DNA of 64,000 nucleotides from Sphingopyxis italica (GCF_011926545.1 NZ_JAATIT010000001.1:715969-779968), one strand, 5' to 3'. Counted from the first letter of the stretch, positions 9,179-40,442 are shown. The notes: generated from the sequence alone by a model not told the origin. Made by a program: numbers and translations.

Positions 9179-9676
9179 CTAGATCGGATAGACCAGATAG
9201 CGGGGTAGTACCGTCGTATCGAGGAGGGTGCGACGGGAAAGAAGCTTAAGATCTCCATCCGCGCCTTCTCGAACGAGATCCTCATATTGCCCCGTCGCGA
9301 GGACTTCGGACACGCCGCTGTCTTCGGGCGTCATGAACACGCTGAAGTTGGACCGCGCTTTCCAGGTGTTATCATCAATTCGGTCCGCCGCGACGCGCTG
9401 AACGAAATGCCGAGTTCGATAGTCCTGAAATGTCCCGGCCCATATCTTCGTGATATAGGTCACTCGGTCGAGCAGGCGCGCGTGGCAGTCGTCGTACATG
9501 AAGCCCAGCGCGAGCCCCTGTTCCTCATTTTCACGCGACAGACAGATATAGGATGCGTCGTCCTCTTCCACATAGTTGGATAGCCAGCGCTGCATATCCT
9601 TGCTGTCGAGTGCGTCCGCGTCCGCGACGAGCAAGTCGTCGAGCGCGCGATTAAAGTTTTCGGGCGCCAAGGTCAT
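9179..9676 (-). CDS. Rieske ring-hydroxylating oxygenase, beta subunit (pair A)
   Basis: A 165-residue small subunit with the SnoaL/NTF2-like fold of ring-hydroxylating oxygenases: a helical N-terminus with SYICLSREN, the DRVTYITKIW and DYRTRHFVQRV segments, and the C-terminal RYLVYPI end. Beta subunits assemble with alpha into hexamers and have no cofactor. The start overlaps the alpha stop (ATGA). It is closely related to the beta subunit at 45640-46134, so pairs A and E are paralogous. It ends 68 nt from the convergent hydrolase; I see no clear terminator hairpin there. Confidence 0.92.
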   Translation of the reverse strand: MTLAPENFNRALDDLLVADADALDSKDMQRWLSNYVEEDDASYICLSRENEEQGLALGFMYDDCHARLLDRVTYITKIWAGTFQDYRTRHFVQRVAADRIDDNTWKARSNFSVFMTPEDSGVSEVLATGQYEDLVREGADGDLKLLSRRTLLDTTVLPRYLVYPI

Positions 9677-10848
9677 GCTGCGCGCCTTTCGAAACCCATT
9701 ATTTCCCGATAATATTCCCATCTCGGAAGATTTCCGCTCTCGTCGTTCTGAAGGAACTCGTCCTCGATCTTCTCTTTGTCACGGACACCTTTTTGAAAGA
9801 TGGCCGCGCCGGGCGTGTGGTTCCCGATATGAATCCGGTGAAAAATCGACGCGTCTTCCATGCTGATCAGGCCGCTCGGACCCAAGAGGTTCGAACTTTG
9901 GCGCAAGCGGTGCCGCACCATCTCCTCATCGTCATCGGCATGCGCGAAATAAGCGTAATGCACTTCGACCCGCTCATGATCGATGGGCGTCGCGAACCGC
10001 AGGTTGATAACGTCCAAATGCTTCGTTGCAACGAAGGTCGGAAAGAGGCTGACGATCCGGGATCCGACGGAGGGGTCCTGCCCCTTGAACTCGATGATCG
10101 ACGGATCTTCGAGCATCGTATCGCCACGGGCAACCGACAGCTCGGATTCAAAGCCTATATGGCCCCGTTTCGTGCTGGTGAACTGGCGCCCCTTACCGCC
10201 CTGCCAGTTTAGGAGATTGAAGGCCTGGTGCAGGAGCGGTGCATGATAGCCGTCATTGTCGGTATAGGACTTCCAGTTCGTGTTGTACCGGACCTTCTGG
10301 TAGCCGAGCAGCTTGAGGCGGCCGTCCCCCCCCACGAGCTCGCGGAGCGTTTCCACGATCGATCCGAGGCATTCGAGAAGGGGTTCGGTTCGAGCGGACA
10401 TGGTGACGAACACGACGCCGTAGACGCTCTCCATCCGGGGTTGGGCCAAGGGATAGTCGGAGCGGTTGAAGCCAGGCACGAACTCGCGCTGGTTCGGACA
10501 CCCGACCAGGTCCCCCCGCGTGCTGAACAGCCAGCGATGATATGGGCATTCGAATTCCTGCTTGTTACCCATCGGAGCGGTTTCGAGCTGGTTCCCGCGG
10601 TGCGAGCAGGCGTTGAAGAAGGCGCGAACGATACCATCATCGCCGCGCGCGATCAGCAGGGGAATACCGGCGAGACGAAACGTCTTGAAATCCCCCCGTT
10701 CCGGGATCTCGCTCTCATGGCAAACCGGATGCCACTCCTCGCCATGAAAAATGCGCTGCAGTTCGGTGTCGTAAACGTCCTTGCGTACAAAAACTTCCTT
10801 CGGAATCTCATTGAAATTGTGAGGCCAGTCCAAATCTAGCTTCGTCAT
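9673..10848 (-). CDS. Rieske ring-hydroxylating oxygenase, alpha subunit (pair A)
   Basis: A 391-residue catalytic subunit. The Rieske cluster ligands are Cys81, His83, Cys101 and His104 (CSHRG and CPYHRW). The mononuclear iron site is in [17 protein letters not shown], with His202 and His207 and the bridging Asp199. About two thirds of the aligned residues I checked match the alpha subunit at 46131-47321. It does not look like BenA, NahAc or AndAc; the [14 protein letters not shown] start and GCPNQREF segment mark a separate group I cannot name. ATG 10848 overlaps the hydratase-aldolase stop, linking this oxygenase to the NahE-like step. Confidence 0.93.
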
Positions 10849-11864
10849 GGGATTGCCTCCAATGATAATGGCGTGGATTGCTCGCGTTCCAGCTCGCGTC
10901 CCAGATCGGCCCACATCGTGCCGGATTTGCGCGCCCCGGCCAGAAACGGCTCGGGTACGAGATGATAGGGCGGCCGAACTGGTCCCGCTTTCATCCACCC
11001 TGCAGCGTCCATTCGGGCCTTCTCGAGGCCGATGTTATACGTTGAAAATTCCTTGAAGCTCCCATTCGGGAACAGGGGCGCGGCGGTGGGGCCCAGACGC
11101 GCCTGCAGCGCCCGCGCGGCCGCCCAGTCGCCGCTTGCCCTCGCCTTCGCGACAATATCGCGCAAACTCGTCGTCACGAGCGGATGGCAAACGGCGCCAC
11201 TGGACCAGAAGGCATCGATCTCGTCGACCATCCGCGCCGCCGCATAATAATCGAAATCGATGGGGAGTAGCTTGATATTGCCCTTCACGGCCGCGAGATC
11301 GGCCAGCAGCGTACCGACCCCGATATATTTCGCGGTCACGACCTGGGGAATTTCCGCGACCTGCGCCCAGAATGCCCGCGGAAAATCGAACTTGAACGCT
11401 TCGGGGTTGGCGTAAATGGCGATATTCATTTCGGGGACGGCCTCGGCGACGTCGCGATAGAATTGCACGGAAACGTCGAGCGCGGGCGCGCACCACATCG
11501 GAATGCCAAGCATGGTCCCGTCGGCGCCAAGCGCAAGCGCTTCCCGGGTCAGGGCGATCGTATCGCGCGTGTTAAGGCAGGTCGTGCCCACGAACACGGG
11601 AACGCGGCCGCCGGCCGCATCGACAATCGCTCGCATATAATCGAGCTTTTCGCCGTGGGTGAGCGTTGCCGCCTCTCCCAAAGTTCCCATGCTGAGAATG
11701 CCGTCAATTCCAGCGTCGATCAGCCCGTTCACCACCCGCGCGGCTTCATCCAGGTCGACCGTGTTCTCTGAGCGCCAGTCCGAGGCGTTTTCGGTAGCGG
11801 GCGTCGGCACGATGGCCCAGGCGCCTTTGATATCATCGGGTCGGAGCAGCCGGCTGCGCATCAT
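10845..11864 (-). CDS. nahE: trans-o-Hydroxybenzylidenepyruvate hydratase-aldolase-like (NahE family)
   Basis: A 339-residue member of the dihydrodipicolinate synthase/NAL superfamily in the NahE/PhdJ branch, which hydrates and cleaves o-hydroxybenzylidenepyruvate to salicylaldehyde and pyruvate. The Schiff-base Lys179 lies in VTAKYIG and Tyr151 in [11 protein letters not shown], both as in NahE. Length is typical. The start follows AGGAGAGGG. As first gene of a three-gene operon with oxygenase pair A, it ties the oxygenase to a bicyclic substrate. The matching isomerase (NahD-type) is at 30450 and the extradiol dioxygenase at 27406. Confidence 0.9.
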
Positions 11865-12034
11865 CCCTCTCCTTTTGGACCTGCAGAATCACGGCCCTTT
11901 CGTTGTTCATAGTGTAATGCATTACTCCTTGTGTTTGCAAGCTGCGACATGTAATTCCTGAATCAACCATTGCGTAACAATTCTATCCAGTTGATATTTA
12001 TCAATTTTAGTTGCGCAATAATGGAGAGCTCACG
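11865..12034. promoter_or_regulatory. Divergent promoter region nahE-like / benD-like with palindromes
   Basis: This 170-nt AT-richer gap holds a perfect palindrome GTAATGCATTAC (11914-11925). It also holds CATTGCGTAACAAT (about 11969-11982) and GTTGCGCAAT (12010-12019), both resembling the ATTGYRCAAT element found at 8.1 and 27.3 kb. For benD a TTGCGT...GATATT pair with 17-nt spacing (about 11971-11999) is a possible promoter. Assignments are tentative. Confidence 0.4.
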
Positions 12035-12820
12035 ATGATTTCCTCCGGGCGATATGCCGATAAAATTGCCGTGGTTACGGGCGGAGCCCAAGGCATCGGA
12101 TTGGCGGTTGCGACCCGAATGGCCCGGGAAGGCGCGACAGTGACCATCGCTGACCGCGCCGAGGACGCCACGATGGCGGCCGTTGCGGGCCTTCGTTCCG
12201 ACGGGCTCGACGCTTATGGTGAAATTCACGACCTTGAGAAAAGAGACGGCGCCTGTTCGCTTTACGGGAATGTGATCGAGCGGCATGGGCGCGTCGATGT
12301 CGCGGTCCATAATGTCGGCGGCACGATCTGGGCCAAGCCCTTCTGGGACTATTGCGCGGAGGAGATAGAGGCTGAGATCAACCGTTCGCTCTGGCCTACG
12401 ATCTGGTGCTGTCATGCCGTGCTCCCGCATCTTTTGGCGGCGGGCCAGGGTGCGATCGTCAACGTCGGCTCGGTCGCGACGCGTGGGATCAACCGCTTGC
12501 CCTATGCCGCAGCGAAGGGCGGCGTTGCTGCGCTGACCGTGGCGCTTGCCCAGGATCTCGAAGACAGGCCCATTCGGGTCAATTGCGTGGCGCCAGGCGG
12601 CGTGAACGTCACGAGAGTCACACCCAGAAATCCGGCCGAGCCCACCGAGGCAGACAAGGCAGGGTTCGAGGCTGTCGTAAGGCAGACGCTGCGCGATACC
12701 CCGATGGCGCGCTTTGGCGAGGTCGACGAGATAGCTGCCGCCATCTGTTTTCTCGGCGCCCCCGAGGCCTCCTACATCACCGGACAGACGCTCTATGTTG
12801 CCGGAGGCGGGATAGGCTGA
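12035..12820 (+). CDS. benD: cis-Dihydrodiol carboxylate dehydrogenase (BenD/XylL-type SDR)
   Basis: A 261-residue short-chain dehydrogenase with TGGAQGIG (15-22) and catalytic Ser146, Tyr157 and Lys161. The stretch NVGSVATRGINRLPY and the following RVNCVAPGG closely match BenD/XylL, which oxidise 1,2-dihydroxycyclohexa-3,5-diene-1-carboxylates to catechols with release of CO2. Thus the product of a benzoate-type dioxygenation would be rearomatised here. ATG 12035 has GGAGA upstream; a TTG at 12011 is within the promoter palindrome. It stands alone on the plus strand, ending 11 nt before the convergent ferredoxin reductase. Confidence 0.9.
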   Translation: MISSGRYADKIAVVTGGAQGIGLAVATRMAREGATVTIADRAEDATMAAVAGLRSDGLDAYGEIHDLEKRDGACSLYGNVIERHGRVDVAVHNVGGTIWAKPFWDYCAEEIEAEINRSLWPTIWCCHAVLPHLLAAGQGAIVNVGSVATRGINRLPYAAAKGGVAALTVALAQDLEDRPIRVNCVAPGGVNVTRVTPRNPAEPTEADKAGFEAVVRQTLRDTPMARFGEVDEIAAAICFLGAPEASYITGQTLYVAGGGIG

Positions 12821-12831: not shown

Positions 12832-14064
12832 CTAGGAAGCAGACTTCTTCAATATTTCGCGCAGCGGGACATCGACATCGGCCAACTCCGCCGGTCCGAC
12901 GCGCGCGCGGCGTTCGACAAGGCGCTTGGCGACTCCCATATCTGCCGACCGGTTCGCGGTCAGCGCGCCCATGACGAGATCTCCTGCGAGGAAGAATGCG
13001 CAAAAGGCATCATCCTCCACCCTCCCGCGCATGATGAGCTGCTGCTGCGCGTCGATGCGCCCGGTCACTTGTATGTTCAGATCATATTGGTCGCTCCAGA
13101 ACCAGCACGGGCGGCAATATTCGACGGGTTGACCGAGCATGGCGGCCGCTGCAGCTGCGCCCTGCTCGGCTGCATTCTGATAGGTCTCCATTCGCACGCG
13201 GCCGCCGAAGAAGTCGGGTTGCTCGGCGACGTCGCCCGCGGCGAAGATGACGGGATTGCTGGTACGGCATTGCGCGTCGACTACGATCCCATTGCCGACG
13301 ATCAGGCCGGCATCCGCTGCCAGTTCGACGGCCGGGACGATCCCGATACCCACAACAACTGCGTCGCAGGCAAGTTCTTCGCCATCATCGAGCTCGACGG
13401 CGCAGACTTTCGCGCCGCTCAGGCGAAGACCTTTGACCGATCGGCCGTAGAGCGCACGAACGCCCTGCATCCGGTGATGCTCGCCGAGCCAAGCTCCAAA
13501 ATGGTCCCCGAGTGCCCGGATCATCGGCGAAGCGAACGGCTCAACAGCGGTAACATTGCAGCCCATTCGCCGCGCGCTGGCAGCAACCTCGGCGCCGATG
13601 ACGCCCATTCCGATGATCACGATCTGCGCGCCGGGCCGCAGATCGGCGGCAAGGCCGGCGGCGTCGCCAAGGGTGCGAAGATGGTGCACATTGGCAGCCT
13701 CGGCCCCTGGCAAAGGCAGGCGGCGAGCGGCGCCGCCCGTTGCCAGGAGAATGCGGTCCGCCTGAACCGCTTCGCCGGACGCGAGCCTCAGCGCGCCGGC
13801 GCGCAGGTCGATCGCCGTTGTTCGCACGCCCAGGCGGAGCTCGACCTTGTTCGAGGCGTACCAATGCTCGTCATGAAGATAGAAGCTTCCAGAAGGCGTT
13901 CCGCCTTCCCACAGAAACTCCTTCGAAAGCGGCGGCCGTTCGTAAGGGCGCCACGGCTCCTCGCCGATGAGATGAATATGGCCGTCATAACCTGCGCTGC
14001 GCAGTGATTCCGCCGCCCTTGCGCCGGCCATGTTTGCGCCGACGACCGCAATGCTATTGATCAC
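12832..14064 (-). CDS. Ferredoxin-NAD(P)+ reductase of Rieske oxygenase systems
   Basis: A 410-residue pyridine-nucleotide-disulphide-oxidoreductase-like flavoprotein of the BphA4/rubredoxin reductase type. It has an FAD-binding VVGANMAGARAAESLR near the N-terminus, an NAD-binding VIIGMGVIGAEVAAS in the middle, and TSNPVIFAAGDVAE near residue 270 contacting FAD. It passes electrons from NADH to a ferredoxin that feeds oxygenase alpha subunits. It is the only such reductase in the window, so it may serve all five alpha/beta pairs. It starts with GTG preceded by GGTGA, 11 nt after the aldehyde dehydrogenase stop, at the end of the meta-pathway operon. Confidence 0.92.
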   Translation of the reverse strand: MINSIAVVGANMAGARAAESLRSAGYDGHIHLIGEEPWRPYERPPLSKEFLWEGGTPSGSFYLHDEHWYASNKVELRLGVRTTAIDLRAGALRLASGEAVQADRILLATGGAARRLPLPGAEAANVHHLRTLGDAAGLAADLRPGAQIVIIGMGVIGAEVAASARRMGCNVTAVEPFASPMIRALGDHFGAWLGEHHRMQGVRALYGRSVKGLRLSGAKVCAVELDDGEELACDAVVVGIGIVPAVELAADAGLIVGNGIVVDAQCRTSNPVIFAAGDVAEQPDFFGGRVRMETYQNAAEQGAAAAAAMLGQPVEYCRPCWFWSDQYDLNIQVTGRIDAQQQLIMRGRVEDDAFCAFFLAGDLVMGALTANRSADMGVAKRLVERRARVGPAELADVDVPLREILKKSAS

Positions 14065-14075
14065 TATTGGTCACC

Positions 14076-15581
14076 CTATTGATCGAACATTCCAAGCTTG
14101 CCCTCGTCGAGGTTCACGATCACCGACTTCGTCTGGGTATAGTGGTTGAGCACCTCGTGACTAAACTCCCGGCCAAACCCGCTCTGCTTGTATCCGCCGA
14201 GCGGCATGTTTGGTTTGAGGTTATAATATCGGTTGATCCATACCGTCCCGGTTTCAAGCTTCCTTGCAATGCGATGCGCGCGCGCGAGGTCGCGGGTCCA
14301 CACGCCGCCGGCGAGGCCGAAGCTCGTGTCATTGGCACGCGCCATCATCTCGTCCTCGTCGCGCCAGCTTTGCACTGTGGTAACAGGACCGAAGATCTCT
14401 TCTTGCGCAATTCGCATGTCGTTTGCGACCTTGGTGAAGATTGTCGGCTGGACGAAATGCCCTTTCGCGAGCCCGGCATCCGCCGAACGCGCGCCGCCGG
14501 CAAAGACCGTCGCCCCTTCCTCGATCGCGAGCGCGAGGTAGGATTCGATCTTCTCCATTTGCATAGTCGAAGCCTGCGCTCCGAGCTGCGTGGCAGGGTC
14601 CAGCGGATCGCCCTGCCTGATGTTGCCGAGCGCATCACGAAATTTCTCGAGAAACTCTTCCTCTATTGCCTCGTGAAGGAAGAGGCGCGACCCGGCGAGG
14701 CACACCTCGCCCTTGTTAAGGACGGTCGACATCGTTGCGCTCTCGACAGCCGCGTCGATATCGGCATCGGCACAAATGATGTGCGCCGATTTTCCGCCGA
14801 GTTCGAGCGTCTGCGGAATGATATTCGCCGAGGCATATTGGATCACGCGGCGCGCGGTCGCGACCGATCCCGTGAAAGCGACTTTGCGCACGTCGGGATG
14901 GGTTACGAGCGCCTCTCCGACGTCGGCCCCATAACCCGTGACGACATTCACCACACCCGGCGGCAGAATATCGGCCATCTCCACGAAAAATTCGAGCACC
15001 GAGAGGCATACCGTTTCGGCCGGCTTCAATACCACCGTATTGCCCGCCGCCAGAGCCGGCGCGATTTTGCACGCCATCATGAGCAGGGGAACATTCCACG
15101 GTATGATCTGGGCGCAGACGCCCAGCGGCTCGCGGTGCACGATGCCGATCGCATCGGGAAAGTCCAGCGTCTGGCCATGCAGGCCGTAGGCGGCACCCGC
15201 GAAGAGTTCGAACTGGCCGATCGCGTTGGGCAGGTCGAAATACAGCGACTCGCGGATGGGCTTACCGTTGTTCAGCGTTTCGAGGACGGCATATTCTTCA
15301 AGGCGCGCCTTGAGGCGGCGCGCAATTTCGTAAAGAAGGTCCTGCCGCTCCGCCGCGCTGCTCTGGGACCATGCGGGAAAGGCCGCTTTTGCCGCCGCCA
15401 CGGCCCGACCAACATCGGCGGCGTTCCCAGCTTGAATTCGGGCGAGCGTCTCACCCGTAGCAGGGTTGAGCAGCGCGATTGTCTTGCCGCTGGCGCCCCC
15501 GACCCATTCTCCGCCAATCAGATGGCCATATTCGTCGCGAATGCCATAGTTGCTTTCAATCGCCTTCAGATTTGTCGACAT
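14076..15581 (-). CDS. Aldehyde dehydrogenase within the meta-pathway operon
   Basis: A 501-residue NAD+-dependent aldehyde dehydrogenase with Cys294 (NKGEVCLAGS), Glu260 (LELGGKS) and Asn163 (IIPWNVPLL). ATG 15581 has GGAG seven nt upstream; the longer open frame runs through the ferredoxin gene in another frame and is not real. It is distinct from the semialdehyde dehydrogenase at 19662 and from the enzymes at 2130 and 41870. Salicylaldehyde (NahF-like role) or another aromatic aldehyde from the NahE-type cleavage is a reasonable substrate, but this is inferred from neighbours only. Confidence 0.9.
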   Translation of the reverse strand: MSTNLKAIESNYGIRDEYGHLIGGEWVGGASGKTIALLNPATGETLARIQAGNAADVGRAVAAAKAAFPAWSQSSAAERQDLLYEIARRLKARLEEYAVLETLNNGKPIRESLYFDLPNAIGQFELFAGAAYGLHGQTLDFPDAIGIVHREPLGVCAQIIPWNVPLLMMACKIAPALAAGNTVVLKPAETVCLSVLEFFVEMADILPPGVVNVVTGYGADVGEALVTHPDVRKVAFTGSVATARRVIQYASANIIPQTLELGGKSAHIICADADIDAAVESATMSTVLNKGEVCLAGSRLFLHEAIEEEFLEKFRDALGNIRQGDPLDPATQLGAQASTMQMEKIESYLALAIEEGATVFAGGARSADAGLAKGHFVQPTIFTKVANDMRIAQEEIFGPVTTVQSWRDEDEMMARANDTSFGLAGGVWTRDLARAHRIARKLETGTVWINRYYNLKPNMPLGGYKQSGFGREFSHEVLNHYTQTKSVIVNLDEGKLGMFDQ

Positions 15582-15595: not shown

Positions 15596-15874
15596 TTATT
15601 CCACAACTTCGATCGTCAGACGACCGAGAGGATAGAGCCGGCAAGCAAGGGCATAACCCGCCTGGAGCTCCGCGTCCGATACATGCGCCTTGCTCATCTT
15701 GCCGAGCCGATGCGCGCCTTCGATAACCCGTACCCGGCAGATTCCGCAGCCGCCGCCCCGGCATCCGACGCCGATGTCGCTCGCTCCGCTGCGCTCCATG
15801 GCAACGAGCACGCGCTCCCCGTCCGGGCATGGAAAGGCGCTGCCTCCCACGATTTCCACGAGATGCGGGCGCAT
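15596..15874 (-). CDS. xylT: Plant-type [2Fe-2S] ferredoxin (XylT/DmpQ-like)
   Basis: A 92-residue ferredoxin with cluster ligands Cys38, Cys43, Cys46 and Cys78 in the CRGGGCGIC...ACR arrangement typical of XylT/DmpQ/NahT. In known meta pathways this protein re-reduces the iron of catechol 2,3-dioxygenase after oxidative inactivation, which fits its place in the operon with that enzyme at 21609. It follows the tautomerase by five nt. It is unlike the Rieske-type ferredoxin at 28328, which is the more likely electron donor to oxygenases. Confidence 0.9.
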   Translation of the reverse strand: MRPHLVEIVGGSAFPCPDGERVLVAMERSGASDIGVGCRGGGCGICRVRVIEGAHRLGKMSKAHVSDAELQAGYALACRLYPLGRLTIEVVE

Positions 15875-15879: not shown

Positions 15880-16086
15880 CTATCCCCCGGACTCGCGCGC
15901 GCGCCGCGCGGCGAACGACTGGCCGCCAACTGCGAAATGTGCTGCGGGAACCTCACGCAGGATGACGCGAACCGACTCGATCGGCGCCCCGACGGCGGAT
16001 ACGGCGGCGTCGGTCAGCGCCGCGACGAGAGCTTCCTTCGCCTCCGGCGTTCGTCCCTCGAGCAAGGTGACCTCGATAATCGGCAT
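15880..16086 (-). CDS. dmpI: 4-Oxalocrotonate tautomerase
   Basis: A 68-residue 4-OT family enzyme converting 2-hydroxymuconate to 4-oxalocrotonate. After Met removal the N-terminal Pro1 is the catalytic base. Arg11 (LEGR), Arg39 (SVRV) and Phe50 (AHFAVGG) match the active site of XylH/DmpI. Its ATG overlaps the stop of the decarboxylase gene (ATGA), so it is translationally coupled to the next enzyme of the same branch. It is slightly longer than classical 62-residue 4-OTs, with a basic C-terminal tail. Confidence 0.93.
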   Translation of the reverse strand: MPIIEVTLLEGRTPEAKEALVAALTDAAVSAVGAPIESVRVILREVPAAHFAVGGQSFAARRARESGG

Positions 16087-16856
16087 CAGGCATCAACCCT
16101 GATCGAAACTGATCCGAGATTCTGGACAGTCGTGCGGATCGACTGACCCTTGGCAAGGGTCGGAGCAGCTGTGATCCCGCCCGCCAGGACGATATCCCCG
16201 GCCTCGATGCGCTCGCCGCCCTCCGACACCATGCGCGCGGCCGCAACGAGCGATCGTAGCGGATGCCCCAATATGGCGGCGCTGGACCCCACTTCGACGA
16301 CTTCGCCGTCGATTTCGAGAATGACCCCGAGATTCGAGATATCCTGGTGCGGGTCGTTCCAGCTTCCGACGACAAAGCCCGAGGAAGAACTGTTGTCAGC
16401 GATGACATCGGCGAGCGCGAACTTGAAATTCTCGTATCGGCTGTCGATCACCTCCATCGCAGGCGCCACCGCGGCAACCGCGGCGAGCGCCTGGGCCATC
16501 GTAACCCTACCGGCGAGGGGAGCCGACATCAGGAAGGCGATTTCCGGCTCGATGCGTGGGTGGACGAAGTTAGCGAGCGCAAGGCTGCCCCCTTCCTCGA
16601 TCAGCATCTTGTCGGTGAGTCGGCCCCAAGCCATCTGGTCGACGCCCACTTGTTGCATCTTGGCCCGGCTCGTGAGACCCATTTTGACGCCGACACGCCG
16701 CTCGCCGCGCTGGAGGCGACGATCGATGGACAGTCGCTGGATTTCATAAGCGTCCTCAACCGTCAGCTCGGGTCGGGCATGGGTCAACTGCGGCGTAGCC
16801 ACGCGTTCGTGCGCGGCCCGGTCCAGGATTTCGGCCAGACTTGCCAAATCGCTCAT
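16086..16856 (-). CDS. dmpH: 4-Oxalocrotonate decarboxylase
   Basis: A 256-residue decarboxylase of the XylI/DmpH type (fumarylacetoacetase-like fold), producing 2-oxopent-4-enoate from 4-oxalocrotonate. Characteristic segments are [34 protein letters not shown] and [15 protein letters not shown]; the YENFKF stretch separates it from the hydratases at 7275 and 18856. ATG 16856 overlaps the aldolase stop (ATGA). A longer open frame running to 17549 is an artefact of an open frame opposite the aldolase reading frame. Confidence 0.92.
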
Positions 16857-17896
16857 TGCGACACCGCCAGTTCCTGGTCCCGAACGAGGTCGAGGGCGAC
16901 ATCGACGATCATATCTTCCTGGCCGCCGACCATCCGCCGCCTGCCGAGCTCGACCAGGATCTGGCGGGTATCGAGACCATATTGTTCGGCCGCCTTTTCG
17001 GCATGGCGCAGGAAACTGGAATAAACGCCTGCATAGCCCAAGCTGAGAGTCTCGCGATCGACGCGCACCGGGCGGTCCTGCAGTGGCCGCACAATATCTT
17101 CCGCGGCGTCCATCAAGCCCATCACGTCGCACCCGTGCTTCCAGCCCTTGCGATCGGCGGCGGCGATGAAAACCTCGAGGGGGGCATTGCCCGCCCCGGC
17201 ACCCATGCCGGCGAGACTGGCGTCGATGCGCACCGCGCCGGCCTGCGCCGCGACGATCGAGTTTGCGACGCCGAGCGAGAGATTGTGATGCGCATGCATC
17301 CCGCGCTGCGTTTCGGGCTTGAGGACCCGATCGTAAGCTTCGAAGCGGGTCCGGACGCCGTCCATGTCGAGGGCTCCGCCGCTGTCGGTTACATAGATGC
17401 AATGGGCGCCATATCCCTCCATGAGCAAGGCTTGCTGCGCGAGCGCTTCGGGATCGATCATATGGCTCATCATCAGGAAGCCAGAGACGTCCATGCCGAG
17501 GTCCCGCGCAATCCCGATATGCTGCTTTGCAACGTCGGCTTCGGTGCAATGGGTAGCGACGCGCACCGAGCGGACGCCGAGACTGTGCGCGCGCCTCAGT
17601 TCCTCGACCGTTCCGATGCCCGGAACCAGAAGCGTCGTCAGCACCGCATGTTCGATGACATCAGCCGCTGCCTCGATCCACTCCCAATCGGTGTGGGCCC
17701 CAAACCCGTAATTAAAGGATGTCCCGTTGAGGCCGTCGCCATGCGAGACTTCGATGGCATCGACCCCGGCTGCGTCGAGCGCCTTTGCAATGGCTCGCAC
17801 GCTGTCGGTGCCATACATGTGAAGGATGGCATGCATCCCGTCGCGGAGCGTTACATCCTGGATGTAAAGCGACTGGCTGGATGGATCGAAGGTCAT
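16853..17896 (-). CDS. dmpG: 4-Hydroxy-2-oxovalerate aldolase
   Basis: A 347-residue DmpG/BphI aldolase cleaving 4-hydroxy-2-oxovalerate to pyruvate and acetaldehyde. The catalytic Arg18-Asp19 and His22 lie in TLRDGMHA and the Mn-binding His201 and His203 in MHAHHN, and the C-terminal communication domain is full length. In this family it forms a channelling complex with the acylating acetaldehyde dehydrogenase, whose gene is directly upstream with an ATGA overlap. Confidence 0.95.
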
Positions 17897-28669: not shown

Positions 28670-28673
28670 GGCT

Positions 28674-33315: not shown

Positions 33316-33361
33316 GTCCGCCAGCATGAGCCTCGGTGGCTTGTGCTGGCGGACTTTGTTT
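33316..33361 (+). terminator. Rho-independent terminator after the TonB receptor gene
   Basis: GTCCGCCAGCA (33316-33326) pairs perfectly with TGCTGGCGGAC (33344-33354), with a further AGCC/GGCT pairing inside the loop, followed by TTTGTTT. It separates the plus-strand oxygenase operon from the acyl-CoA ligase gene. Confidence 0.8.
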
Positions 33362-33413
33362 GCTGTCGCGCAAAGACGGGCCGTTCAACCGAAACTGGTC
33401 GAAGGATGGATGG

Positions 33414-35039
33414 ATGACGATCACGGGACAAATGCAGCCTGCGCAGCTGGCGATCGGCACGATCCTGACATATGCCGCCGCCGCGCACGCAACCCGGGAA
33501 GTGGTGTCGCGCGAGATCGGCAGCGATCGGTTGTGGCGTTATGATTATGCAGCGCTCGCCCGCCGCGTAGCGCAGGCTGCCAACATGTTCACCCTTGCCG
33601 GGATTGGGAGCGGTGACCGGGTATCGTCGCTCGCCTGGAACACGCACCGGCATCTGGAACTCTTCTACGCGGTCCCGGGCCTTGGGGCAGTGCTTCACAC
33701 GGCCAACCCCCGGCTCCCCGACGATCAGCTGATCTTCACCTTGAACCATGCCGAGAGTCGCATATTGGCGTTCGAGCCCAACCTCGCCGCGCTCGTCGAG
33801 CGGATTGCGCCCAACCTCCCGCACATCGAAAAATTCATCGTACTTTCCGACGAGGGCGTCGGCATCGGCGAGAGGTTCGAGGCGCTGGCCTATGAGGCCT
33901 TGCTCGCGGCGGCACCGGTCTCGATCACCTGGTCCGAAATCGATGAAAATTCCGGGGCGTTTCTTTGTTACACCTCGGGGACCACAGGCGATCCCAAGGG
34001 GGTGCTCTACAGCCACCGGGCAGTCGTTCTGCATGCGATGGGAGCGGGCTTGGCGAGCGCGTTCGGCCTCACGTCGTTCGATTGCGTGATGCCTTGCTCC
34101 TCGCTCTATCACGCCACCGCCTGGGGCCTTCCGTTCGTGGCGCCGCTCTGCGGCGCCAAGCTCGTTCTTCCTGGCGACCGCATGGACGGTCCTAGCCTCC
34201 AGGCCCTAATCCGAGGGGAGGCGGTTTCTTTTACCGGTGGGGTGCCCACGATCTGGACCATGTATCTCGCCCACCTCGAGGCAACCGGCGGCGACACGGG
34301 AACGCTCAAGCGGATTATGATCGGGGGCTCCGCCGTACCTCGCGCGATGGCAGAAAGCTTCAAGGCCGACCATGATGTCGATGTCCTTCAGCTCTGGGGA
34401 ATGACCGAGACCTGCCCGCTCGGTGTGATCGCAACACCGACGCCGGCCGTCGCGGACCTCGGCGAGGCAGCGATGCAGGATATATTGTGGACGCGGCAGG
34501 GACGGCTCCAGTTCGGCGTCGAGATGCGCATCTTGGGCGAAGACGGGCGCCCCTGCCCCCACGATGGGGCGACGGCAGGCGCGCTACAGGTGCGGGGTCC
34601 GTGGGTGGTTCAGCGCTATTTTCGTCAGCCGGCGGATTGCACCGATGTCGGCGGGTGGTTCGATACCGGCGACGTTGCGACACTCGACGCCCAGGGGTTC
34701 ATGCGAATCACAGACCGCACCAAAGATGTCATCAAGTCGGGAGGAGAGTGGATCAGCTCAATCGACCTTGAGAATGTTGCCGCTGGGTGCAGCGGGGTCA
34801 AAATCGCCGCGGTCGTCGGCATTCCGCACCCTAAATGGGAAGAGCGCCCGCTCTTGATCGTCGAGCCTCATGATGGAATCCTTCCCGACGAAAAGGAAAT
34901 TCTATCAACCCTATCCGCGGAATTCGCGAAATGGCAGCTGCCCGATCGCATCCTCGTCGGCGCGGTGCCACTTACGGCAACAGGGAAAATCGACAAGAAG
35001 CAACTGCGCGAACGCTATGGTAATGTCTACGCGGCTTGA
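33414..35039 (+). CDS. Acyl-CoA synthetase / AMP-dependent ligase
   Basis: A 541-residue ANL-superfamily ligase. The P-loop [11 protein letters not shown] is at 186-196, the LWGMTE A5 motif follows mid-protein, then [10 protein letters not shown] and the C-terminal [13 protein letters not shown] with the adenylation Lys. It resembles medium/long-chain fatty-acid or aryl-alkanoate CoA ligases. AAGGA lies seven nt before the ATG. A close paralogue with a frameshift is at 60839-62454. It is separated from the upstream operon by a terminator and converges on a TetR gene. Confidence 0.9.
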
Positions 35040-35082: not shown

Positions 35083-35104
35083 GAAGCTTGTCATCGCAAG
35101 CTTC
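35083..35104. terminator. Hairpin between convergent ligase and tetR genes
   Basis: GAAGCTTG (35083-35090), a six-nt loop, then CAAGCTTC (35097-35104) make a perfect eight-bp stem. It overlaps the tetR stop. There is no T tract, so it may be a weak bidirectional terminator. Confidence 0.4.
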
Positions 35105-35804
35105 AACCAATAGCGTCTGGGCCGCCCGTCCCGTCGTTCCGCTCCCGCAGCGACTGCGCATAGCCGGACAGCAAGGCAATTGTCAGCTCGGTGACGCGCC
35201 TTGCCCGCTCGGGGTCCTTTCCGATTTGGGCTCGCACCGCCAATCCGCGGAGCACGCTCCACAGCAGCCACAATATGTCTTCGGCGTCAGACGGAGACAG
35301 GCCGGTCTTGGCAAAACGGCTGACCCAGACTTGCTCGGCCCCGACGCGTCGTTGCTGCGACATACCGCGAACATCGTCGGCGAGGGCCCGAAGCTTGTTT
35401 CCCGAGATGACGAGGTCGAGCGCGATCAAAAAATCTTCACCGTAGAAGAATGCCTCTGCATCGTCGCATGCAGCCTCGAGGAGGCCGTCATCTTCGATAG
35501 CCTTACCCGCGGCAGCGGTCGCCTTCTCCAGGGCTGCCGAAAAAACCTGCTCCAGGCAGGCGGCGACTAGTTGGTCCTTTGTCGGAAAATGGTGAAGCTG
35601 CGCTCCGCGAGAGACGCCTGCGCTTTCGGCAACGTCCGCGACGCGAAACGCCGAATAACCTTTCTCGCGCAACAGATTGATAGCGGCCGAAAGGATTCGA
35701 GCCCGCATCTTTCTACTGCGTTCGCCTTGTGGCTTGTGCGAATTGTCGTGAGCTGGGGAAATGTCCGCCACTGCGTCTGCTACACCTCTTGCCGAGACCC
35801 TCAT
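35103..35804 (-). CDS. TetR/AcrR-family transcriptional regulator
   Basis: A 233-residue repressor-type regulator: an N-terminal helix-turn-helix (RILSAAINLLREKGYSAFRV then VAESAGVSRGAQLHHFPTK) around residues 37-80 and a helical ligand-binding C-terminal domain. It lies downstream of the SDR on the same strand, 121 nt apart, and convergent to the ligase. It could control the ligase or the neighbouring operons; no operator was identified next to it. The first 25 residues before the HTH look unstructured, and a later start is possible. Confidence 0.88.
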   Translation of the reverse strand: MRVSARGVADAVADISPAHDNSHKPQGERSRKMRARILSAAINLLREKGYSAFRVADVAESAGVSRGAQLHHFPTKDQLVAACLEQVFSAALEKATAAAGKAIEDDGLLEAACDDAEAFFYGEDFLIALDLVISGNKLRALADDVRGMSQQRRVGAEQVWVSRFAKTGLSPSDAEDILWLLWSVLRGLAVRAQIGKDPERARRVTELTIALLSGYAQSLRERNDGTGGPDAIG

Positions 35805-35925: not shown

Positions 35926-36708
35926 TCAGCGAAACGTCGTACCGCCATCGACGGCTATCGACTGGCCCGTCACAAATTCTGCGCCGTCGGACGCGAGGTA
36001 AAGCGCTGCGGCGAGCAAGTCGTCTGCGGTCTCGTGGCGCTTGATGCACTGCATGTTCAATATCTGGGTCTTTTGCGCGGGCGTCACCGTCTCGCGCTCG
36101 ATCTCCGTGAAGGTTGCGCCCGGAAGCAGCGCATTCACCGTGATCCCGTCGGCGCCGAGTTCACGCGCCATGGCGCGCGTCATACCGACCACCGCCGCTT
36201 TGGAAGCCACATAATGTAAATAGTGCGGTCGGCCCATAGTCACCACCCCGGACGAGATGTTGATGATGCGCCCATGACGATTACCTCGCATTACCGGCGC
36301 GCACGCCTTGGACACCAGCATTACGCCATCGACGTTCACGCGCATGACCTGTCTCCACTCGTCAAACGGGATTTCCTCGAAGGGCCGCATTTTCAGCGTC
36401 GAGAAGATCGCCGCATTGTTGATGGCGATGTCAATGCGGCCAAAGGCCTCCAATGTCTCCGCTATGGCGGCGTCGACGGCTGCCGGATCGGCCACATCGG
36501 CCCGAATGGCGATAACGGTGCCGGCGCCACATTCCGCTTCGACCTCGGCCGCTACCGACCGTCCGCTGTCTTCGTTCAGTTCGACGATGGCGATTTTCGC
36601 ACCGGCGCGCGCGAAGCCTTTGGCGAAAACCCGCCCGATTCCTTGTCCCGCGCCCGTGATGAGCGCGACGCGCCCCGCGAAGGTGTCTGTCTTGGTCATG
36701 TCGGTCAT
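35926..36708 (-). CDS. Short-chain dehydrogenase/reductase
   Basis: A 260-residue classical SDR with TGAGQGIG (18-25), INNAA (96-100), catalytic Ser153, Tyr166 and Lys170 (YVASK). It resembles diol or 3-hydroxyacyl/cyclohexanol dehydrogenases and is not specifically BenD-like. GAGG precedes the ATG by seven nt. It is the last metabolic gene of the long 49-36 kb minus-strand array, following the class II aldolase-like gene by 67 nt. Substrate is unknown. Confidence 0.88.
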   Translation of the reverse strand: MTDMTKTDTFAGRVALITGAGQGIGRVFAKGFARAGAKIAIVELNEDSGRSVAAEVEAECGAGTVIAIRADVADPAAVDAAIAETLEAFGRIDIAINNAAIFSTLKMRPFEEIPFDEWRQVMRVNVDGVMLVSKACAPVMRGNRHGRIINISSGVVTMGRPHYLHYVASKAAVVGMTRAMARELGADGITVNALLPGATFTEIERETVTPAQKTQILNMQCIKRHETADDLLAAALYLASDGAEFVTGQSIAVDGGTTFR

Positions 36709-36775: not shown

Positions 36776-37477
36776 TCATCCGCCGCTTGCTCCTCGACCT
36801 TCGGTCACGTCCATCGCCGTCAGCCAACTCCACATCCGCTCAACGACGCCGCCGGCCAGGGTCTGGCGCGCGCGTATCTCGTCTTCATCGAGAAGCCCGT
36901 GTTGAGGGCCGAACCCCATCGAGCGCACGTCGCGCTCTACCCGCGCGGCGTCTTCGAGGAAGAAGGCAAAAGTCGCAGCTTCCTTCAGATCTTGCCCGAC
37001 CGTAATCGCTCCATTTCCTCGCATGACGATCGCACGAGCCTCGCCAAGGGCAATTGCAAGATTTCTCGCTGAAGCGTCGTCGCGCAGGAGCCTGGGATCG
37101 TCCCAAAGCGGCGGCCGGGGAGCGAAATAGGCGCCTAGGCCGTGCCGCGCCGCCGGTGTGATCCCGAGCGTCGACAACGACATGGTGGCGGCGGGCATGA
37201 TGCGACAAATGCCGCCGACATCGGACCGCGCGGCATAAATCGCCTGGTGCGCGCGCACTTCGCCAAGCACTTTTTGGGGAAGGGCGCCATCGACCGAGAC
37301 AATAGTACCGGGTTCGTCCTTGATAAGCCCCATGGGCATTGCGGCACAGACAAGAAAGTGCCGCGCATCGATGCGCGCACTGCAATGGCCGAACGCGTGC
37401 ACGAGCCCGGCGTGCGCCAGGCCGCGCGCCGCCATGCGCACCTGCATCTGAAGTCCGGGGTCAATCGTCGCCGGCAT
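36776..37477 (-). CDS. Class II aldolase/adducin-fold protein lacking the zinc histidines
   Basis: A 233-residue member of the fuculose-phosphate-aldolase/adducin-like family. Aligning with FucA, Glu73 is kept (GEVRAHQAIY) but the zinc ligands His92, His94 and His155 correspond to Arg92, Met94 and Asn155 (ICRIMP, RGNGAITVG). A metal-dependent aldolase mechanism is therefore unlikely, or another metal site is used. Relatives include decarboxylases of dihydroxyphthalates. Its 17-nt overlap with the PdxA-like gene suggests a role right after diol dehydrogenation, perhaps in decarboxylation. Confidence 0.75.
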   Translation of the reverse strand: MPATIDPGLQMQVRMAARGLAHAGLVHAFGHCSARIDARHFLVCAAMPMGLIKDEPGTIVSVDGALPQKVLGEVRAHQAIYAARSDVGGICRIMPAATMSLSTLGITPAARHGLGAYFAPRPPLWDDPRLLRDDASARNLAIALGEARAIVMRGNGAITVGQDLKEAATFAFFLEDAARVERDVRSMGFGPQHGLLDEDEIRARQTLAGGVVERMWSWLTAMDVTEGRGASGG

Positions 37478-38471
37478 AAAACCCTCTCCCGAAGCAGAGT
37501 GATTCGGCCATCTTCATCGCGGAGGCCATGCTGGCGTGCTGGGCGATGCCCTGTCCCGCAATTTCCATGGCAGATCCGTGCGGTACGGTCAGATGAACAT
37601 AATCGAGGCCGATATAGATGGTGCACGCGCCTTCGAAGGCAGCCGTCTTGAGCGCAATCTGGCCCTGGTCATGATACATTGAGACAACAACGTCGTATCG
37701 TCCCTCCATGGCAAGACGAAATATCGAATCGGGCGACACCGGCCCCTCGACGCGGCGCCCCGCCGCGCGCTCCCGTTCGACCGCCGGCGCGATCTCGCGC
37801 ACTTCTTCAGTTCCCATCGCGTGCGGATTCAGGCCGGCGACGCCGATCCTGGGGGCATTGACGCCCCAACGCCTGAAAGTCTCGTCAACGAGACCGATCA
37901 GCGACGACACCGCCGCGGCAGAGACAGTGCCCGGGACCTCGGCGATGCTGATATGCTCGGTGATTGGGACGATCCGCAACGAGGGGCTGACTCGCAATAG
38001 ATAGGTTCCAGCCGGCTGAAGATCGTCGATGGACGATATTTCGCCAGACGCCTTGAGTGATTGCGAGTCGACCGGGGCCATGATCCAGCCATCGATCTCT
38101 CCATTGCGAGCCAATTGCTCGGCCAAGCGGATCCATTCTATCACCGCCCGGCCCGAAGCGGCGCCCGACTGTCCGATATCCCATGCCCCCCTCGCCAGCG
38201 AGCCGTGGTCGAGAACGGCGATTTCGCCAACCGCACCGGACACCTCATCCGGCGTTTCCACCTGGTAGATGGGAGGGCTAATCCCGCTCGCCGCGGCCGC
38301 GAACCGGACAGCGTCGATGCTTCCGATCAATAGGTGCCGCGCCGCGTGGTTGCCGGCGGCGAGTGCCTTGACACAGACCTCTGGACCGATACCCGCCGGA
38401 TCGCCAATGACGGTAGCGATGAGTGGCTGCTCACGGCGCGGCTTGCCCGCTCCTTCGCCTGCACCTCTCAT
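37461..38471 (-). CDS. PdxA/TphB-family dehydrogenase, second copy
   Basis: A 336-residue PdxA-like protein with metal histidines His173 (ITEHIS), His217 (GLNPHAMG) and His267 (YHDQGQ). As at 24250, it directly follows a BenA/BenB-type oxygenase pair with a start that overlaps the beta stop (ATGA). By analogy with TphB it probably rearomatises a carboxylated cis-dihydrodiol. The two copies are clearly divergent, so they likely serve different substrates. Confidence 0.8.
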   Translation of the reverse strand: MRGAGEGAGKPRREQPLIATVIGDPAGIGPEVCVKALAAGNHAARHLLIGSIDAVRFAAAASGISPPIYQVETPDEVSGAVGEIAVLDHGSLARGAWDIGQSGAASGRAVIEWIRLAEQLARNGEIDGWIMAPVDSQSLKASGEISSIDDLQPAGTYLLRVSPSLRIVPITEHISIAEVPGTVSAAAVSSLIGLVDETFRRWGVNAPRIGVAGLNPHAMGTEEVREIAPAVERERAAGRRVEGPVSPDSIFRLAMEGRYDVVVSMYHDQGQIALKTAAFEGACTIYIGLDYVHLTVPHGSAMEIAGQGIAQHASMASAMKMAESLCFGRGFYAGDD

Positions 38472-39016
38472 AGCAGGAAGGTCACATTGCGCATGGGCGC
38501 ATCATTGTTGATCAGATAGACCTTCTTGCCCAAGATTTTGAAGCCATCGGCCCCCTGTTTCAGGAGGTGGGTCGCGCGCGCGAACAAGGATTGATGCTGA
38601 CCGGAGCGCGCCTCGCCCAGGATGAAGTTTGAACTGACAAGGACATCGGATCCGCCGGATGCGGCGACCGTAATGTTCGAGACGATGCGGATCAGACGCG
38701 ACTTCGGACTTTGCGAATGCATCCGCTTATCCTTCAGGCGGAATATTCGATCCGAGATCTGGTCATAATGCTCGTAGATGATCGAGACGGACCGATCGGG
38801 GTCGAGGTCGGCCTGATTGGAGGGAACCCAGTAGAGGCCGCCCGGCTCCCAGAGCGCGAGCCAATCGTCATAGGCGTGGCTGTCCATCAATTCGGCCTCA
38901 AAATACAAAAATGCTTCGATTTTGCCGAAAATGTCGCTCCCGGGCAGGATTGCCCGGCTCTCCTTCAATTCCGAGAAGACGGTGAAATCGCAAAGATCTG
39001 CTGCTACCATGTTCAT
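38468..39016 (-). CDS. Rieske oxygenase beta subunit (pair D)
   Basis: A 182-residue small subunit with FLYFEAELMDSHAYDDWLALW, GLYWVPSNQ, SVSIIYEHYDQISDRIFRLKD and a C-terminal LINNDAPMRNVTFLL. The GGGAGG site places the start at 39016, one nt after the alpha stop. It is longer at the N-terminus than the other beta subunits here. The sequence sits in the benzoate-type group, as does its alpha partner. Confidence 0.9.
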   Translation of the reverse strand: MNMVAADLCDFTVFSELKESRAILPGSDIFGKIEAFLYFEAELMDSHAYDDWLALWEPGGLYWVPSNQADLDPDRSVSIIYEHYDQISDRIFRLKDKRMHSQSPKSRLIRIVSNITVAASGGSDVLVSSNFILGEARSGQHQSLFARATHLLKQGADGFKILGKKVYLINNDAPMRNVTFLL

Positions 39017-39017
39017 C

Positions 39018-40442
39018 CTAACGCCTCCCATCGGGCGATTCTTCGGCCATCATCGCCAGCCATTGCCGGATCTGAGCGCGCTGCGGAACCTCGTCGGAAA
39101 CATGGCCGACGATCGTCCCATCTTCATCAACCCACTCGCGCTCCATCCCGCGCGATATATTGATCCACGGATCGAGATTAGCCTCCAGGCCGAGTTGCAC
39201 CCGCTCGAAAATCTCGGCGTCGTCTGTCGATCCGGATCCTGCGGGTCCATAAAAGGATTCATGCTGGCGAAGTCGCAGCGCATTGATTTCGGTGCTGACG
39301 TTGGAGAACAGCACAGGGAACATCACGACCTCGGTCTCGTCGACAGACAGGGGATTAACGATCCGGATCTGGTTGTTGATCAGTTGCAGGTTTGGAAAAA
39401 CGCCGACGTGAGGATCGCCCGCCATGGCAAGCAGCATGTCCGCCCAGGCAACATCATGCTCTGCATAGAGCGCGTCGATATAGTCTGCCCCTCCCGGCGT
39501 GTTTTCCAGAAGCGCGCGATATTTTCCCGAGTGCTTGAGCCGATGCTTACGGAAATCGAGCATCGTGTGGCCATGACCGAAGTCGCGCGTTTCCGAGATT
39601 CCGTCGAAGTCGAAGGGGTTCGCACTGTGCGTGGCACCGAGGCTGTGACCCGAATCGGTGTGTCGTTCCCATGTCGCCAGCACCGAGGCATGGACGAACA
39701 ACGGATGATATCCATCCATCCCGACCTGCTTCCAATTTCCTTTATAGATCGTCCGGTTGGATCCGGCTCGCACGCTCAACTCTCCGCCCGGTGCCGCGTC
39801 GACCAGGATGTCGATCACCTTGGCTGCGTTGCCGAGATAGTCCTCGAGCGGAAGGACCTTTTCGCTCAAAGCCGCGAATATGAAGCCGCGATAATCTTCG
39901 ACCCGCGGCACCGGCGTGAGACCGTTTTCGCTCGCGTCGAAACTCGGCCCATAGCCGTCGGGCCCGGAAACGCTGACCAGTTCGCCAGCATTGGAATAGG
40001 TCCAGCCGTGATACCAGCAGCGGAAAAAGCTGTCCCTGCCTTCGTCCACCTCGCAGACGATTGCGCCCCTGTGTCGGCAGCGGTTCAGGAAAACGCGGAT
40101 CTCGCCATCCTGGCCGCGAACAAAAATGACCGGTTGACGGCCCATCTGCCGACGCTTGAACTCGCCCGTTTTTGCAATCTCGCTCTCATGGCCGATGAAC
40201 AGCCAACCGGTGTGGAAAATCCGCTCGAGTTCAAGATCGAAAATCTTCGCGTCGGTATACACCGCCGAATGAATCCAGCCCGGTGCCACAAGCGATCGCA
40301 GGCCTGCCGCGTCATAGTCGCGGCCGCGTATGTCGAGGCGGTCCGGCATGCGGTGCGGTCCTGACGGCGCGCGATCGCCCTTGCCGGCCGGCAAGGTGCC
40401 GCCGGCGCCCATTGCTAGATGATTTTCCGCTGACAATTTCAT
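39018..40442 (-). CDS. Rieske oxygenase alpha subunit (pair D, BenA-like)
   Basis: A 474-residue large subunit. Rieske ligands are Cys122, His124, Cys142 and His145, with CWYHGW in place of the usual CPYH/CPFH. The iron site KQVGMDGYHPLFVH holds Asp243, His246 and His251. It belongs near the benzoate-type subunits, with IFHTGWLFIGHESEIA and GRQPVIFVRG, but is divergent. The first 45 residues are poorly conserved and start choice is weak: GGAG is only a few nt before ATG 40442. It follows the MFS transporter gene by 30 nt. Confidence 0.88.
   Translation of the reverse strand: MKLSAENHLAMGAGGTLPAGKGDRAPSGPHRMPDRLDIRGRDYDAAGLRSLVAPGWIHSAVYTDAKIFDLELERIFHTGWLFIGHESEIAKTGEFKRRQMGRQPVIFVRGQDGEIRVFLNRCRHRGAIVCEVDEGRDSFFRCWYHGWTYSNAGELVSVSGPDGYGPSFDASENGLTPVPRVEDYRGFIFAALSEKVLPLEDYLGNAAKVIDILVDAAPGGELSVRAGSNRTIYKGNWKQVGMDGYHPLFVHASVLATWERHTDSGHSLGATHSANPFDFDGISETRDFGHGHTMLDFRKHRLKHSGKYRALLENTPGGADYIDALYAEHDVAWADMLLAMAGDPHVGVFPNLQLINNQIRIVNPLSVDETEVVMFPVLFSNVSTEINALRLRQHESFYGPAGSGSTDDAEIFERVQLGLEANLDPWINISRGMEREWVDEDGTIVGHVSDEVPQRAQIRQWLAMMAEESPDGRR

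Follow-up and report, generated by a model that had tools for sequence, protein, structure and literature searches.

Gene content of the window and its relation to plasmid pNL1

We analysed a 64,000-nucleotide stretch of the Sphingopyxis italica genome (hereafter the window), which corresponds to C1:715969-779968 of a 4.04 Mb genome in 12 contigs. It holds a cluster of aromatic degradation genes at 9179-33253 and a second block at 35103-49146, called module D below. An initial annotation had named NahC-, NahD- and NahE-like genes, two BenA/BenB-type oxygenase pairs (B and D), a BenD-like and two PdxA-type dehydrogenases, a salicylate-hydroxylase-type oxygenase and a full meta pathway, which spans 14076-23400. 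All of these are present and their frames are open (Table 1). Beyond that list, we found two VOC family proteins (47414 and 48268), an aldolase (36776), a beta subunit (45640), an MFS transporter, a TonB-dependent receptor and an aldehyde dehydrogenase. Five ring-hydroxylating alpha subunits are encoded in the window (9673, 25747, 29182, 39018 and 46131) and two further ones lie outside it, on C3 and C4. By homology all five appear to belong to families acting on aromatic carboxylates, in agreement with the acid-type oxygenases initially proposed.

As judged by homology, the gene combination itself is mostly known, 9179-33253 following the catabolic region of plasmid pNL1 (N. aromaticivorans F199) with 53-90% identity between the proteins. 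The pNL1 segment 128947-133831 is collinear with window 9179-14064 (A2e, A1e, NahE, XylL, A4, all found in the window), and pNL1 145458-166363, from xylC to nahD plus the TonB-dependent receptor, is collinear with window 14076-33253 except for A1dA2d. The order xylC-xylT-4OT-dmpHGFE-xylG-hbpS-xylE-xylF-gst, then pdxA-xylY-xylX, then bphC-A3-A2c-A1c-nahD is thus kept. The main part is found in the same order in Novosphingobium ES2-1 p4, and the entries of the pLA1 (US6-1) proteome table include bphC, xylX, xylY, a PdxA-like gene, bphA1d, bphA2d, bphK, xylF and xylE (PMC3946609). We rejected the idea that the combination is new as such, since pNL1 and other plasmids and strains hold nearly all of it; what was unfamiliar to the initial annotation is mostly the published cluster minus one block.

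On NCBIfam models, the SDR at 12011-12820 passes for one dihydrodiol-carboxylate dehydrogenase (339 bits, cut-off 322) and fails for BenD (302 bits, cut-off 380). The NahC-like protein (27406-28305) reaches 371 bits on the biphenyl-2,3-diol 1,2-dioxygenase model, slightly above the cut-off of 366.

Absence of the hydrocarbon-attacking block

Between the A4 and aldehyde dehydrogenase genes, which are almost contiguous in the window, gaps of 11.6, 9.6, 19.5 and 11.6 kb are found in pNL1, G041, G002 and N. marinum, respectively. These gaps hold an NtrC-type regulator, two hydrocarbon dioxygenase pairs (alpha subunits at 135798 and 137696 in pNL1), XylM, XylA and BphB, with additional genes beyond this block in G002. 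In G028, a divergent lineage of the genus, the two genes are adjacent too and the block is absent. A1dA2d, located beside the glutathione S-transferase gene in pNL1, is absent between the glutathione S-transferase and PdxA genes in both the window and G028.

Whole-genome searches returned no close match to a NahAc-type oxygenase, the best match to the pNL1 hydrocarbon-dioxygenase alpha query being XylX at 32%, and no orthologue of a BphB/NahB-type dehydrogenase, the best match to pNL1 BphB being at 37% on another contig. The NahA-type dioxygenase and NahB-type dehydrogenase of a naphthalene upper pathway were therefore not found in these searches, in line with their absence from the window noted by the initial annotation. 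XylM, XylA and the NtrC-type regulator are absent from the window by synteny, the search for these having been confined to the window. Because the hydrocarbon pairs, XylMA, BphB and the NtrC-type regulator were not found, we consider the region a variant of the pNL1-type cluster. With moderate confidence, and from sequence comparison, we would describe it as a chromosomal sphingomonad cluster of this type (it sits on a 1.65 Mb contig), devoid of the hydrocarbon-attacking block and accompanied by a separate acid module, D.

Phylogeny of the oxygenases and pair B

Alpha subunits were placed in a tree of 62 rows, built by a quick method with Shimodaira-Hasegawa-like approximate likelihood ratio test (SH-aLRT) support only and with long branches flagged by the program. 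It took 42 of the 58 loci, L006-L012, L014, L015 and L057-L063 being omitted as near-copies or weak matches. XylX groups with BenA/XylX enzymes in an 8-row clade (SH-aLRT 99; 81 for an inner fork of five rows). The XylXY counterpart of Sphingobium PNB is reported to convert benzoate and p-toluate, and the account gives its PdxA-like gene no assigned role (PMC4048848). On the strength of this counterpart, pair B is by homology an ordinary toluate/benzoate dioxygenase.

According to the initial annotation, a dihydroxynaphthalene for NahC, NahD and NahE would arise from 1- or 2-naphthoate or a naphthalene dicarboxylate through oxidative decarboxylation by pair B, pair D or both, acting with a PdxA-like dehydrogenase. 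For pair B, both the position of XylX and the activity of its PNB counterpart argue against this proposal. In the alpha subunit phylogeny, suggested at that stage as a check, pair B falls with benzoate/toluate enzymes, one half of the outcome named beforehand as speaking against the proposal, and pair D is sister to the opa-type group.

Module D and its relatives

The block 35103-49146 is not in pNL1. Its alpha subunit (39018) belongs to a 23-row clade (SH-aLRT 100), separate from the XylX/BenA clade, together with nine opa-type alpha subunits from Pseudomonas, Alcanivorax-type, Marinobacter and Pseudoxanthomonas loci (L026-L034), to which it is sister and among which it does not nest. It also stands apart from the HcaE and salicylate types. 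In Pseudomonas PTH10, the opa cluster is described as degrading o-phthalate via 2,3-dihydroxybenzoate and meta-cleavage, and the class II aldolase DhbB of strain MT1 as the decarboxylase of that route (PMC6362003). The opa-like loci are 49-52% (alpha), 40-44% (beta) and 45-49% (VOC 47414) identical to module D. They differ from it in using the SDR OpaB where module D has a PdxA-like dehydrogenase, and the amidohydrolase OpaD where it has a class II aldolase; unlike opa, module D also contains A1e2, VOC2 and a TonB-dependent receptor. Neither an OpaB-type SDR nor an OpaD-type decarboxylase is linked to 39018, an OpaB-like SDR (12011) being present elsewhere in the cluster, and given this replacement we did not class module D as an opa cluster.

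The opa-type loci were recognised through L033, whose products of 345, 276, 433, 285, 300, 327 and 337 residues have the lengths published for OpaJ, H, Aa, C, O, D and Ad, and whose Pfam families fit the opa gene set; the PTH10 description states no family for OpaO (PMC6362003). The comparison of open reading frame lengths with the opa table was noisy, every start codon being allowed, and L033 alone was used as evidence. The other loci rest on similarity to L033, and L027 has evidence of its own besides.

The VOC protein 47414 keeps the His, His and Glu metal ligands and resembles OpaC-like enzymes (2,3-dihydroxybenzoate and 2,3-dihydroxy-p-cumate 3,4-dioxygenases); the ligand assignment presumes the positions we take to be those of BphC enzymes. 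VOC2, encoded directly upstream, has the second His and the Glu replaced in 5 of 5 copies (window, L013, L016, L019 and L069) and the first His in 3 of these; all three ligands are kept in the 7 active-type proteins aligned. One may ask whether the extradiol dioxygenase has in VOC2 a conserved but inactive partner; one narrow literature search found no paired inactive VOC extradiol subunit.

A similar core is found in Caballeronia zhejiangensis p3 (L065; alpha 57%, beta 50%, PdxA 55%, VOC 50% and class II aldolase 56% identical), where, unlike in module D, the row itself includes genes for a ferredoxin, a reductase, a hydrolase, DmpEFG, an MHS transporter and a porin. In the 31 kb examined around it, neither nahD nor nahE is annotated. 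The presence of the D core, hydrolase and DmpEFG in one row points to a self-contained monocyclic-acid route, and module D, having its own ring-cleavage enzyme and class II aldolase, need not feed NahC, NahD and NahE. Sphingobium AntQ-1 has a relative at 51%, for which no substrate was found in PMC9836352, and the nearest named relatives of the D oxygenase are from Sphingopyxis strains, among them H053 and LC363 at 100% and H050 at 84%. In PDB searches, D alpha came out close to cinnamate and other dioxygenases, a placement that does not single out a substrate, and only distant class II aldolases were retrieved. p-Cumate (cmt), considered as a named identity for module D, was dropped without a reference sequence for comparison. 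A1e2, the TonB-dependent receptor, the aldehyde dehydrogenase and the MFS transporter occur in the D block of the window, of the 84-85% Sphingopyxis lineage and of N. marinum.

Table 1 Features of the window, by position (percentages are identities)
Feature	Coordinates	Strand	Evidence
Left block: UbiD/VdcC-type decarboxylase, aldehyde dehydrogenase, FAD-binding oxidoreductase, UbiX/VdcB-type, HpcH aldolase, hydratase-like	652..8096	-	
A2e, beta subunit	9179..9676	-	64% to pNL1
A1e, alpha, predicted salicylate-1-hydroxylase type	9673..10848	-	DNDGYHxxLLH iron motif; 75% to pNL1 A1e; tree
NahE, hydratase-aldolase	10845..11864	-	DHDPS family; 77% to pNL1 gene in same place
XylL/BenD-type dihydrodiol dehydrogenase (SDR), probably the BenD-like gene of the initial annotation	12011..12820	+	73% to pNL1
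A4, ferredoxin reductase	12832..14064	-	63% to pNL1
Junction, A4 / aldehyde dehydrogenase	14064..14076	.	11 bp between genes; hydrocarbon block absent here
Aldehyde dehydrogenase (XylC/NahF position)	14076..15581	-	80% to pNL1
XylT-like 2Fe-2S ferredoxin (matched part)	15605..15868	-	67% to pNL1
4-Oxalocrotonate tautomerase (matched part)	15898..16086	-	75% to pNL1
4-Oxalocrotonate decarboxylase-like	16086..16856	-	FAA hydrolase family
DmpG, 4-hydroxy-2-oxovalerate aldolase	16853..17896	-	
DmpF, acetaldehyde dehydrogenase	17893..18828	-	
DmpE, 2-oxopentenoate hydratase	18856..19665	-	
XylG, 2-hydroxymuconic semialdehyde dehydrogenase	19662..21107	-	829 bits, over cut-off
HbpS-like protein	21174..21599	-	
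XylE, catechol 2,3-dioxygenase	21609..22535	-	over cut-off
XylF, ring-fission product hydrolase	22552..23400	-	model match, pNL1 homologue
Glutathione S-transferase (BphK position)	23571..24176	-	pNL1 homologue
PdxA1, PdxA/TphB-family dehydrogenase of pNL1-type cluster	24250..25272	-	73% to pNL1
XylY, beta subunit (longest frame; true start probably lower)	25256..25828	-	
XylX, benzoate/toluate dioxygenase alpha (pair B; PdxA1 to XylX, 24250-27171)	25747..27171	-	66% to pNL1 XylX; tree
NahC/BphC, 1,2-dihydroxynaphthalene / 2,3-dihydroxybiphenyl dioxygenase	27406..28305	+	77% to pNL1; extradiol signature present
A3, Rieske ferredoxin (matched part)	28349..28651	+	64% to pNL1
A2c, beta subunit (likely start 28674)	28653..29162	+	58% to pNL1
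A1c, predicted salicylate 1-hydroxylase alpha	29182..30453	+	73% to pNL1; tree
NahD	30450..31040	+	DSBA fold; 71% to pNL1 gene annotated 2-hydroxychromene-2-carboxylate isomerase
TonB-dependent receptor	31064..33253	+	68% to pNL1
Acyl-CoA ligase	33360..35039	+	matches nothing in pNL1 stretches compared
TetR-type regulator, edge of D block	35103..35804	-	
SDR dehydrogenase	35926..36708	-	
Class II aldolase family, proposed decarboxylase (DhbB-type role)	36776..37477	-	56% in Caballeronia operon
PdxA2, proposed PdxA/TphB-family dihydrodiol dehydrogenase	37461..38471	-	
D beta subunit	38468..39016	-	
D alpha subunit (pair D), sister to opa-type o-phthalate 2,3-dioxygenases	39018..40412	-	tree
MFS transporter	40473..41873	-	
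Aldehyde dehydrogenase	41870..43327	-	
TonB-dependent receptor	43378..45582	-	
Beta subunit beside A1e2	45640..46134	-	
A1e2, second A1e-type alpha	46131..47321	-	DNDGYHxxLLH; 63.5% to pNL1 A1e
VOC extradiol dioxygenase, proposed 2,3-dihydroxybenzoate 3,4-dioxygenase type, 285 aa	47414..48271	-	metal ligands by alignment
VOC2, paralogue without full metal-ligand set	48268..49146	-	alignment

Distribution among genomes

In a survey of 80 genomes of the genus, with a threshold of E<=1e-50 for hydrocarbon-type alpha subunits, a D alpha orthologue was detected in 13 genomes (10 at 100% and 3 at 85% identity) and NahE in 15. Twelve of the latter also carry D, and none of these twelve, among them the 77% complete G048, has a hydrocarbon-type alpha subunit. 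In each of the 3 genomes with NahE and no D (G002, G035 and G041), such an alpha subunit is encoded no more than about 6 kb from NahE. In G048, G002 and N. marinum, the NahE match extends across one stop codon. In the five genomes derived from individual loci, no NahE match at E<=1e-20 was found in three: Caballeronia dw_19, Paracoccus subflavus and a 2.0 Mb metagenome-assembled genome. Recent interspecies spread of the 100% identical D copies was rejected as an explanation, G000 and G062 aligning at 99.2% over 90.7 kb including the flanks; this check compared one of the nine other identical copies, the remainder being presumed close relatives.

Several points weigh against our description of the region and its module. 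XylX, at 589 bits, scores below the curated BenA cut-off of 781, under which both BenA-type alpha subunits (25747 and 39018) fall, and the class II aldolase 36776 matches the PhtC decarboxylase model weakly (42 bits for a cut-off of 200). The link to opa follows from gene set and product lengths and not from the OpaAa sequence, and the longest OpaAb- and OpaB-like frames of L033 have 176 and 275 residues vs the published 171 and 269. With 49-52% identity and a PdxA-like enzyme in place of the SDR, the substrate of D alpha may differ from o-phthalate, and substrate assignments throughout are made by homology. The 12-versus-3 pattern does not represent 12 independent events, because D falls into two lineages (100% and 85%). 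Finally, two genomes are exceptions: G055 has D, no detected NahE and, on another contig, two hydrocarbon-type alpha subunits, and N. marinum combines D (contig C15) with a nah cluster that includes the complete hydrocarbon block (C2). From this distribution, exceptions included, we conclude that D is an independent module that often but not always accompanies the reduced cluster. A strict mutual exclusion of D and the hydrocarbon block was rejected, N. marinum having both.

The same distribution bears on the production of dihydroxynaphthalenes by pair D with a PdxA-like dehydrogenase. The retention of NahC, NahD and NahE without a hydrocarbon entry, the co-occurrence of D orthologues with NahE in 12 of 13 genomes of the genus and the presence of both in N. 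marinum would favour it. However, pair D is sister to opa-type enzymes, has its own ring-cleavage and class II aldolase genes, and does not share a contig with the nah genes in N. marinum. A relative of the pair in Caballeronia dw_19 has an alpha at 61% and a PdxA, and one in Paracoccus subflavus an alpha at 56% and both VOC proteins, with no PdxA noticed close by; neither genome gave a NahE match at E<=1e-20, and the C. zhejiangensis core comes without annotated nahD or nahE in the 31 kb around it. Taking pairs B and D together, we consider the proposal improbable.

Maintenance and possible feeding of NahC, NahD and NahE

The frames of NahC, NahD and NahE are intact. Between the window and G028, their nonsynonymous divergences (dN) are 0.080, 0.153 and 0.071 and their ratios to synonymous divergence (dN/dS) 0.044, 0.101 and 0.045, like those of other cluster genes (0.023 to 0.124 across all genes with a value). 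These ratios are rough because dS is above 1 throughout, near saturation, and 2 of the 23 genes (A2c and the class II aldolase) have no computable dS. Low ratios and intact frames indicate that the three genes have been kept in two lineages where no hydrocarbon dioxygenase was found, which bears out the claim that they persist without a hydrocarbon entry.

We propose that their simplest feed would be 1-hydroxy-2-naphthoate, a breakdown acid of phenanthrene, decarboxylated to 1,2-dihydroxynaphthalene by the putative salicylate 1-hydroxylase pair at 28674-30453. According to PMC11705938, which refers to Balashova 2001 and, for the three-component enzyme of S. yanoikuyae B1, to Cho 2005, a salicylate 1-hydroxylase has been characterised that carries out this very conversion. 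The A1cA2c pair of the window is likewise of the three-component type (73 and 58% identical to pNL1), and its counterpart in Sphingobium PNB is reported to convert salicylate and anthranilate (PMC4048848). Such an entry requires neither a dioxygenase nor NahB. The initial idea of a carboxylated bicyclic compound entering NahC, NahD and NahE thus survives, with the decarboxylating role moved from the benzoate-type pairs to A1cA2c and 1-hydroxy-2-naphthoate as substrate. Among the titles and abstract openings examined from the open-access literature, neither a Sphingopyxis naphthoate pathway nor a naphthoate dioxygenase gene of this kind was found.

Alternatively, NahC, NahD and NahE may act on other substrates or be carried unused in what is simply a degrader of benzoate, salicylate and alkylbenzoates. 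XylXY, XylL, A1cA2c and the meta pathway would suffice for monocyclic acids, and BphC-type enzymes cleave other catechols. Yet unused genes are expected to decay, and these are intact and constrained between the window and G028; we regard this alternative as rather unlikely.

An integrated naphthoate route was also weighed. The carboxyl group would stay on the second ring through NahC, NahD and NahE, giving 3-formylsalicylate, which the aldehyde dehydrogenase 41870 would convert to 2-hydroxyisophthalate and A1e2 to 2,3-dihydroxybenzoate, before cleavage by 47414 and decarboxylation by 36776. It would make sense of the fact that D comes with A1e2, a class II aldolase, an aldehyde dehydrogenase and a VOC of the 2,3-dihydroxybenzoate type, and that these genes are found together with NahC, NahD and NahE. 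Strain CSV89 offers in its 1-naphthoate chemistry a precedent for a carboxyl group retained on the second ring, but takes 2-hydroxyisophthalate to salicylate and not to 2,3-dihydroxybenzoate (PMC8006333). The route also calls for an oxygenase that attacks the ring without substituents, a part in which pair D would be surprising, and each of its steps is conjectural, so that we give it very little credence. The broader version, in which 9-49 kb would form one carboxylated-naphthalene route, by way of a carboxysalicylaldehyde, with an active VOC and a catalytically dead VOC partner, the hydrocarbon block having been swapped for module D, is highly doubtful too.

Flanking genes and other loci

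The left block (652-8096), a UbiD/UbiX (Vdc-type) set possibly devoted to a p-cresol-like compound, has pNL1 homologues that also lie beside the cluster, but at the opposite end, beyond nahD. To the right of module D (50515-62454) are an alpha/beta hydrolase, a carboxylesterase, two beta-lactamase-fold proteins, a TonB-dependent receptor, a GntR-type regulator and an AMP-dependent ligase. Elsewhere in the same genome, L005 (G000:C3:80000-96000, about 3400-11800) holds a second oxygenase cluster with VOC, SDR, hydrolase, class II aldolase (63% identical to 36776) and DmpEFG; a plasmid of Sphingopyxis macrogoltabida (L067) encodes an almost identical alpha subunit. In a 613-residue frame at L004:5824-7665, the Rieske and catalytic oxygenase domains do not begin before residue 261, perhaps because of a long N-terminal part or a later start; an FAD-dependent hydroxylase gene follows.

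Proposed routes and significance

In the reduced pNL1-type cluster, XylXY and XylL would convert benzoate and toluate to catechols, and A1cA2c would convert salicylate to catechol and 1-hydroxy-2-naphthoate to 1,2-dihydroxynaphthalene. The latter would be processed to salicylate by NahC, NahD, NahE and an aldehyde dehydrogenase, all catechol branches entering the meta pathway. Module D would take a benzoate- or phthalate-type acid to a 2,3-dihydroxybenzoate-type product by means of the oxygenase 39018/38468 together with the PdxA-like dehydrogenase 37461; 47414 would cleave this product, 36776 would decarboxylate what results, and the meta pathway would complete the route. Module D may thereby represent an oxygenase group related to o-phthalate 2,3-dioxygenases that pairs with PdxA-type dehydrogenases, with a testable substrate range.

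Given these proposed routes, the cell would be a consumer of aromatic acids and not of hydrocarbons. When mixed communities break down polycyclic aromatic hydrocarbons (PAH), acids escape, among them hydroxynaphthoates, phthalate and salicylate, and since the hydrocarbon genes are absent and an extra aromatic-acid set is present, the strain may live on acids left by other microbes. If this is true, a chromosomal cluster with the acid half of a PAH pathway and without its hydrocarbon half would be the genetic signature of a cross-feeder, and the markers nahE, bphC and xylE would therefore over-count true PAH degraders.

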